A DNA stretch of 39,920 bases, taken from positions 1 through 39,920 of the forward strand of contig DASPGQ010000558.1 of NCBI GenBank assembly GCA_035620555.1, given 5' to 3'. The notes beneath the pieces are model-generated. The model was not told the DNA's origin and ran no database searches. It saw only the letters and a list, made by a program, of their open reading frames with translations. Source of the stretch: Vicinamibacteria bacterium (GTDB taxonomy: Bacteria > Acidobacteriota > Vicinamibacteria > Marinacidobacterales > SMYC01). The position numbers and the translations under genes were made by a program. Below, piece after piece: positions 2,018 to 36,760 of the stretch. Position 1 is the first letter of the stretch. Each line of letters opens with the position of its first letter.

Positions 2018-2149
2018 TAGTCAGGCTGATGAAAAAGTACGCTCTAGGCTGCGCGAGCGGAGCGAGCCCGGCGCGCTGGCCGCGCCGTAAGCAGCCCGAG
2101 CCGTGGCGGCTCGATCGAATACAGGTCCCGCCACGGCATTGAACACTAG
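2018..2149 (+). repeat. Structured dispersed repeat, copy 1 (upstream of permease)
   Basis: About 132 bases that recur in inverted orientation at 28841-28970. By eye alignment, the 100-base core 2050-2149 matches the other copy at 93 of 100 positions; the first 32 bases are more divergent but share TGATGAAAAA. The core contains a hairpin GGCGCG-CTGGC-CGCGCC (about 2070-2086) and a second dyad, CCGTGGCGG and CCGCCACGG (2101-2109 and 2128-2136), with an 18-base loop. The copy ends in CACTAG, 10 bases before the permease ATG, next to the purine run AGAGAG that serves as ribosome-binding site. No protein is encoded. It could be a MITE/REP-type element or a cis-regulatory leader. Confidence 0.85.
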
Positions 2150-2159
2150 AGAGAGATGA

Positions 2160-27444: not shown

Positions 27445-28851
27445 TCAGTCCATCATCGGCCGGGGATCGGCGATCGCTCCGGTGACCGCGGTCGCCGCCG
27501 CCGTCAAGGGGCTCGCCAGGATCGTGCGGCCGCCCTTTCCCTGGCGCCCTTCGAAATTGCGATTGCTGGTGCTCACCGCGATCTGTCCCGGAGCAAGCTC
27601 GTCGCCGTTCATCGCGATGCACATCGAACAGCCTGGCTCCCGCCATTCGGCGCCCGCCTCGATGAAGATCTTGTCCAGCCCCTCGTCGACGGCGCGGCGC
27701 TTGACTTCCTGAGAGCCCGGCACGACCAGGGCCCGTACGCCGGGGGCCACCTTTCTGCCCTTCATCACCGAGGCCGCCATCCGGAGATCGCTGAGGCGGG
27801 CGTTGGTGCAGCTCCCGATGAAAACGACGTCGACGGGCTTTCCCACGAGTCGCTCGCCCGCTGAAAGCCCCATATACCGCAGTGACTTATCGACAGCATC
27901 TCGGGGAATGGGCTCGCTCAGGCCGATGGTCATCCCCGGGTTGGTGCCATAGGTGATCATCGGCTCGAGTGCGGAGGCATCGAGCACCATGCTCTTGTCG
28001 TAGACGGCATCCTCGTCGGTTGCGAGACTCTGCCAATCGACGAGCGCCCGCTCCCAGGCTTCACCCCGGGGCACCCGAGGCCGGCCCGCGAGGTACTGGA
28101 ATGTCGTATCGTCCGGCGCGATGAGCCCCGCCCGGGCACCGGCCTCGATGGACATATTGCACACCGTCATGCGGGCCTCCATCGGTAGGGCCTCGATTGC
28201 GCTCCCGGTGTACTCGATGACGTGGCCCAATCCGCCGTCGACACCAACGACGCGGATCACCGCGAGAATCAAATCTTTCGCCGTGACACCCGGGCCGAGC
28301 GTCCCCTCCACCCGCACCTCGAAGGTCTTCGGCTTCTGCTGGAGCAAACACTGGGTAGCAAGCACATGCCCCACTTCGGTCGTACCGATCCCAAAGGCCC
28401 ACGCCCCCAAGGCTCCGTGAGTCGCCGTATGGCTGTCACCACAGACGATAGTCATGCCCGGCTGCGTGAGCCCGAGCTCCGGTCCGATTACATGGACGAT
28501 GCCCTGTCGGTCGTCACCCAGGGGGTACAGCTCGATGCCGAACTCTTCGCAGTTTCGTCTGAGGGCCTCCACCTGCTCTCTCGTTTGCGCGTTCGCGTAG
28601 CGGGGGATGCCACCGTCGAAGAGCGTCGGGGTCGAATGATCCATGGTGGCAACGGTGCGCTCGGGCCTCCGCACTTTGATGCCGCGACGCCTGAGCTCCT
28701 GGAAAGCTTGCGGGGAGGTCACCTCGTGGATCAGGTGCAGGTCGATGTAAACCACGGCAGGATGATCGTGGGTCGCCGGAAGGACGACGTGCCGACGCCA
28801 GAGCTTCTCGAAGAGCGTGAAGGCCAGAGGCGCTCCTCTACTAGTGCTCAC
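27445..28851 (-). CDS. leuC: 3-isopropylmalate dehydratase large subunit (start uncertain)
   Basis: An aconitase-family protein that binds a 4Fe-4S cluster through Cys in [14 protein letters not shown] and [29 protein letters not shown] and [32 protein letters not shown] are further LeuC signatures. With LeuD it isomerises isopropylmalate. The N-terminus is odd. Homologues begin MAKTLYEKLFDAHVV; the matching stretch here is [15 protein letters not shown], and its first codon is CTG at 28827. No ATG, GTG or TTG occurs at that point. AGAGGAG precedes the CTG by 5 bases. The nearest standard starts are GTG 28851 (used here) and GTG 28887, both encoded inside repeat copy 2. leuD follows 2 bases after the stop. 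Confidence 0.93.
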
Positions 28852-28970
28852 TACCGTGGCGGGACCTGTAATCGATCGAGCCGCCACGGCTCGGGCTGAC
28901 TACGGCGCGGCAAGCGCGCCGGGCTCGCTCCGCTCGCGCAGGGTGGGTTAAGTTTTTCATCACCCTGCTA
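28841..28970 (-). repeat. Structured dispersed repeat, copy 2 (between leuA and leuC)
   Basis: About 130 bases, inverted relative to copy 1 at 2018-2149. Read on the minus strand it begins at the leuA stop codon and ends in CACTAG, a few bases before the AGAGGAG in front of leuC. It fills nearly the whole leuA-leuC gap. Dyads seen: CAGGGTG and CACCCTG near its left end, GGCGCG-CTTGC-CGCGCC, and CCGTGGCGG with CCGCCACGG around an 18-base loop. The core 28841-28940 is 93% identical to copy 1 by eye. The stems are identical in the two copies. Confidence 0.85.
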
Positions 28971-36478: not shown

Positions 36479-36760
36479 TTAATTCAGCCGGTCTTCGTCC
36501 CAGTCGTCATCCGAGTCGCCTTCCCAGCGGTCTAGCTCCTCGTCCTCGTCCTCGTCGTCGTCTTCGTCTTCGTCCTCGTCCTCGTCGTAGTCGTACTCCT
36601 CCTCGTACTCCTCCTCGTCGTCGAGATCGTCGTCATCCACGAGGTCATCCTCGAGCTCATCGTCCTCGTCGTCGGGCTCGTCGATGTCCTCGAGATCGTC
36701 GTCATCCGGCGGTTGGAACGAGGCTGAGCCGTCCTGATTGTCGGGCCCGGTGTACTTCAT
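36479..36760 (-). CDS. Extremely acidic low-complexity protein
   Basis: A 93-residue ORF in which 58 residues are Asp or Glu, by my count. The first 18 residues (MKYTGPDNQDGSASFQPP) and the last 20 are more varied; the middle is almost only D/E with a few Tyr and Leu. The DNA is correspondingly made of GTC/TTC-type triplets on the plus strand and is prone to slippage. It could be a DNA mimic, a histone-like-protein partner, a cation buffer or a disordered linker-like protein. ATG 36760 has no ribosome-binding site, but a perfect TATAAT lies 8 bases upstream. It follows namZ on the same strand by 24 bases. Function unknown; coding status is moderately supported. Confidence 0.6.
   Translation of the reverse strand: MKYTGPDNQDGSASFQPPDDDDLEDIDEPDDEDDELEDDLVDDDDLDDEEEYEEEYDYDEDEDEDEDDDEDEDEELDRWEGDSDDDWDEDRLN

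Follow-up and report, generated by a model that had tools for sequence, protein, structure and literature searches.

Streptococci offer the best-documented composite repeats of the BOX type. The BOX elements of Streptococcus pneumoniae and S. suis follow a boxA-boxB(n)-boxC plan, in which constant 5′ and 3′ modules enclose middles that vary in the number and choice of modules, and the S. suis forms combine seven subsequences (PMC3049150). These elements are intergenic, present in high copy number, structured if transcribed, and probably mobile but non-autonomous (PMC3049150). The repeat family described here resembles BOX in each of these respects. It differs, however, in residing in another host lineage, in being GC-rich, in lacking terminal inverted repeats, in its apparent insertion between YTRG and AGRG, and in its bias toward the sense orientation and toward start codons. 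The enterobacterial repeats ERIC/RU-1 (127 bp), RU-2, and RU-3 are likewise of similar length, multi-copy, intergenic, and structured; RU elements have been described as MITE-like (PMC2759123), whereas the present repeat has two different end hairpins and a modular middle. REP sequences, which RAYT (TnpA-REP) proteins mobilize, also place a hairpin beside a tetranucleotide, form arrays, and are extragenic (PMC3733652, PMC8266576). A REP is defined as a GTAG-tagged palindrome of 20–40 bp (PMC3733652). In contrast, the element studied here is ~130 bp long, carries three hairpins, has a YTRG left consensus and a CTAG terminus rather than GTAG, and was found with no associated RAYT. We file it as BOX-type because constant end modules enclose exchangeable middles and its sites are dispersed and intergenic (120 of 121 paired elements), a classification by construction plan alone that implies no descent from streptococcal BOX. 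A literature search on the core motif or the lineage returned nothing relevant.

Two copies of the repeat in the window

The window is a 39,920-nt stretch of the genome of a Vicinamibacteria bacterium. A repeat search identifies an inverted pair at 2049–2149 and 28841–28941 (101 nt, 93% complementary) as its strongest long pair, which confirms the repeat that an earlier note had placed at 2018–2149 on the plus strand and 28841–28970 on the minus strand. Copy 1 spans 2017–2149 on the plus strand, both flanking CTAG tetranucleotides included, and lies between a divergent PilZ gene and a permease start. It begins with hairpin H1 (CAGGCTG...TAGGCTG, 2022–2051, plus strand), which is broken in this copy by a changed 3′ arm. 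Next come core A (GCGCGAGCGGAGCGAGC, 2051–2067), which is conserved and unpaired, hairpin H2 (CGGCGCG/CGCGCCG, 2069–2087), and hairpin H3 (CCGTGGCGG/CCGCCACGG, 2101–2136), the right-end module, all on the plus strand. The CTAG right terminus and the purine-rich, Shine–Dalgarno-like target flank AGAGAG that follows it (2146–2155, plus strand) stand just 5′ of the permease ATG at 2160 or 2163.

Copy 2 occupies the leuA–leuC gap at 28841–28970 on the minus strand, and its left TAG (28970–28968) is the leuA stop codon. Here H1 (28939–28967) is intact, as it is in most other copies, and takes the form of a compensatory variant, CAGGGTG/CACCCTG. The conserved core A (28923–28939) and the H2 (28903–28921) and H3 (28854–28889) hairpins follow on the same strand. 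Beyond the right end (28825–28839, minus strand), a Shine–Dalgarno-like AGAGGAG flank precedes a CTG that is probably the non-canonical start codon of leuC. The two dyads reported in the earlier note (GGCGCG/CGCGCC of H2 and the H3 arms) are intact in both copies; the third, 5′ hairpin H1 (CAGGSTG...CASCCTG) had been overlooked.

The genes beside the copies were checked and encode a MacB_PCD/FtsX permease, LeuA, LeuC (Aconitase), and LeuD (Aconitase_C). That the element ends just before a translation start is correct for copy 1. For copy 2, no in-frame ATG, GTG, or TTG follows the element near the expected LeuC N-terminus, and leuC likely starts either at the CTG at 28827–28825 behind AGAGGAG or at a GTG at 28851 inside the tail of the element. 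The best database matches of LeuC itself (27445–28827) are mostly from Chloroflexota, Gemmatimonadota, and Myxococcota, at no more than 70% identity, a pattern that possibly reflects transfer or simply a poorly sampled lineage. The window also contains a long low-complexity run of TCG/TCC-type triplets (36495–36706; 14 overlapping repeat copies), probably corresponding to an acidic tract read from the minus strand. Rfam has no match in the window, the best sub-threshold match scoring 14.6 bits (E 0.84). No promoter-like site was detected in copy 1 or copy 2, and terminator-like sites are limited to two overlapping ones on the antisense strand of copy 2.

Family size, ends, and modular construction

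The earlier note described a repeat with two copies, but searches of the organism's own genome (7.01 Mb, 835 contigs) with the core and the ends reveal a family of ~150–200. BLAST recovers at least ~40 full copies. With up to 3 mismatches allowed, the core GCGCGAGCGGAGCGAGCCCGGCGCG is matched 94 times genome-wide (66 exact matches) and its reversed control not once, which excludes chance. Left ends number 148 (CAGGSTGATGAARAA, up to 1 mismatch; control, 1) and right ends 181 (GGTCCCGCCACGGCAYTGA, up to 2 mismatches; control, 0). The left part of the consensus reads YTRG↓CAGGSTG-ATGAAAAA..-CASCCTG (H1; arrows mark element boundaries or insertion points), then CGCGAGCGGAGCGAGC (core A). The right part reads CGGCGCG/CGCGCCG (H2), CCGTGGCGG/CCGCCACGG (H3), and CATTGAGCAC(T)CTAG↓AGRG. 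Both ends are sharp, at YTRG↓CAGG on the left and GAGCAC(T)CTAG↓AGRG on the right, and flanking sequence is random past ~4 nt on the left and ~5–8 nt on the right. The YTRG consensus was obtained separately from the refined-boundary logo, in which left boundaries are sometimes shifted by 1–2 bases. Nearest-neighbor copies at unrelated loci have a median identity of 95%, reaching 99%.

The copy number and the sharp ends suggest mobility. The size, the copy number, and the lack of coding capacity would suit a MITE that is bounded by terminal inverted repeats and depends on a DDE transposase. However, the two ends (CAGGSTG... and ...GAGCACTCTAG) do not match each other in inverted orientation, and no target-site duplication is detectable, words common to left and right flanks being no more frequent than in shuffled pairings. 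On both grounds, the DDE-type MITE was rejected as highly improbable.

Left and right ends in 129 loci around copies were paired with profile HMMs. Between identical ends, the middle is modular, containing core A or core B and optional inserts X, Y, and Z, with left–right distances of 55–315 bp. Core B (CCGAGCGGYGGCCAAAACGTCTGCCGCGAGATCGG) can stand in place of core A. Insert X (~58 nt) is placed after CGAGCGGAGC, insert Y (~57 nt) lies inside the H2 loop, and an insert Z can come next; inserts can be combined in one element. A solitary module Y (57 nt, AATCGTCCGCA...GTGCGAATAA) immediately follows a stop codon elsewhere in this genome (locus L117, 7393–7449), so Y is possibly an independent element; at other sites, it is found in tandem inside the repeat. 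Module Y could be a small element in its own right, nested within H2 loops.

Copies also form head-to-tail arrays with junctions such as GAGCACGAG↓CAGGG, in which the terminal tetranucleotide is common to both units. These internal junctions lack the AGRG flank, which marks AGRG as target sequence and the terminal tetranucleotide as part of the element. Several contigs of this genome (C442, C686, C200, C609, and C97) end inside or beside copies or arrays, so the arrays are probably under-assembled.

We consider it likely that the family is a non-coding, non-autonomous, short interspersed composite mobile element of the BOX type, which prefers particular sites, is purged from genes, and is carried passively. 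In such an element, fixed left and right hairpin modules would enclose interchangeable middle modules, and a putative trans-acting recombinase or transposase would spread the whole. Insertion would be conservative, leaving the target unduplicated, and would occur immediately 3′ of a YTRG that tends to have AGRG next to it. The pattern fits a scheme in which a circular or excised copy, its ends joined as CTAG↓CAGG, would exchange with a YTRG↓AGRG target, so that the left boundary becomes YTRG↓CAGG and the right one CTAG↓AGRG. The right terminus would bring its own CTAG-like tetranucleotide, so that new units could join old ones and build head-to-tail arrays.

No autonomous copy was found: no long left–right pair encloses a gene, and the left–right distance never exceeds 315 bp, save for two orphan left ends. 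An autonomous copy could be missing from the 835-contig assembly because repeats break assemblies. A search for the mobilizing enzyme found no transposase with matching ends in the genome. The only IS110 gene bears no end of the element and was rejected as a partner. A more specific version of this explanation, whose probability overlaps with that of the broader one, is a REP/IS200-IS605-type element, in which a Y1 HUH transposase acts on single-stranded hairpins beside a tetranucleotide. Hairpins at both ends, the edge tetranucleotide, the absence of target duplication, and the arrays are all consistent with this version. The genome's single Y1 gene, however, is IS200-like and carries different ends and none of the element's, for which it was rejected as a partner, and Y1 matches in three relatives are also without them. 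In addition, the element is far longer than REPs and has no GTAG tag (PMC3733652). We therefore regard the Y1 version as tenable but doubtful.

Relatives and covariation of the hairpins

In three genomes from other genera of the same family, the terminal motif and the 5′ module (H1, core A, and H2, with compensatory changes) are shared with the present element, whereas the 3′ modules differ. One of these genera also has module X, in an identical internal position. In the relatives, the downstream gene is sense for nine copies and antisense for three (12 copies with a called downstream gene), and several copies stand directly before start codons, for example, those of atpD-like and dapA-like genes. 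One such repeat lies at ~2310–2372 of locus L317 in relative G001, directly before an atpD-like gene for the ATP synthase beta subunit. Among 193 genomes of the class, the element is confined to one family. At up to 1 mismatch, the core has 94 matches in the present genome and 4 and 2 in two other members of the family; every other genome of the 193 has at most one. A covariance search of 13 genomes yielded no clear match beyond family members. Phage carriage was considered and rejected, as one viral contig has the 19-base core motif without the element.

The earlier note had proposed a covariance model; a covariance-model alignment of 94 copies, the three other genera included, contains compensatory changes in H1 and H2. 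In this alignment, which was fitted to the structure, H1 and H2 have standard pairs in 98.1% of cells, compared with 23–49% for slid partners. Two-sided changes affect 6 pairs of the two hairpins (48 cells), but this count calls for caution, as 34 of the 48 cells trace to a single G-C/C-G switch in H1 by which two subfamilies are distinguished. In the stems, G-U pairs outnumber A-C pairs by 18 to 6, with 10 of the 18 stemming from one loop-closing pair; this excess hints that the sense strand is the one that folds.

Placement relative to genes

Placement statistics come from 983 kb, comprising 129 loci around copies that were picked for holding copies, with genes called by a home-made hexamer gene caller. 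The downstream gene is sense in 74 of 116 cases and antisense in 42 (p=0.004), these 42 copies being directed at the stop codon of a gene that is convergent or antisense. In co-directional gaps, the bias is 38 of 52 sense versus 14 antisense (p=0.0012). The right end lies a median of 39 nt from a sense start, whereas the left end lies a median of 87 nt from a divergent start (p=2e-5), and in divergent gaps the copy is closer to the start it faces in 24 of 33 (p=0.007). Stop codons are also close: where the upstream gene is in sense, a median of 1 nt separates its stop from the left end, with YTRG often providing the stop codon, and the right end is a median of 20 nt from convergent stops. Replication strand was examined as a cause of the sense bias and rejected; a weak GC3-skew proxy gave 58 versus 50, with no signal.

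These data bear on the proposal that the element is a mobile cis-regulatory leader, kept in sense upstream of starts because its RNA, once folded, governs how the downstream gene is translated or how stable its message is. The sense and start bias in this genome, the like bias in the related genera (9:3, including the copies before the atpD-like and dapA-like genes), the covarying hairpins with their invariant core, and the G-U excess as a hint of sense-strand folding are what such a leader would be expected to show. However, one-third of the copies face convergent or antisense genes (42/116 antisense), the middle modules are freely swapped or deleted, the downstream genes are unrelated to each other, and there is neither an Rfam match nor a promoter; more than half of the G-U pairs (10/18), moreover, stem from one position. 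Judged as a cis-regulatory leader, the element has the conserved, covarying structure in H1 and H2 but not a constant sense placement before related genes. We rate this reading as unlikely. Its more specific form, a lineage-specific mobile 5′-leader that inserts in sense between stop codon and ribosome-binding site and whose core GCGCGAGCGGAGCGAGC is read by a trans-acting factor, appears distinctly improbable. If true, it would put many unrelated genes under shared post-transcriptional control.

The site-preferring mobile element offers a simpler account of the same bias. The purine-rich AGRG right flank is present also where no start follows, and site preference therefore explains much of the start bias. 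Element-free YTRG↓AGRG sites, in a small sample, are likewise sense-biased (14:5) and lie a median of 16 nt from starts, which supports site preference plus purging from genes as the simpler cause. YTRG↓AGRG sites occur at TAG stop codons and just upstream of Shine–Dalgarno sequences, and under this mechanism selection would purge insertions inside genes; most copies would then come to lie in sense, with a stop codon on one side and a ribosome-binding site on the other, and would probably be carried passively in transcripts. Two observations stand against a wholly neutral element. Core A is very constant (66 of the 94 core sites are exact), which could mean function, and the 38:14 sense bias in co-directional gaps exceeds what a neutral element needs.

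The earlier note's picture of a dispersed, structured, mobile-looking repeat with a sense bias and a right end near starts is borne out. Its suggestion that insertion targets start regions fails as a rule because about one-third of the copies are aimed at the 3′ terminus of a gene that is convergent or antisense, and left ends often adjoin stop codons. Many copies lying at random with respect to genes had been named as the outcome that would argue against a regulatory or start-targeted element; the copies are indeed many, but their placement is not random.

The family thus combines a sequence of its own with the BOX plan, a different insertion behavior, a start bias, and a distant host lineage, probably acidobacterial judging from the permease type and kinship. 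Compared at the level of plan, this combination suggests that a BOX-like construction arose more than once. The large natural set of copies across several genera provides material for finding the mobilizing enzyme and for testing effects on the expression of adjacent genes.
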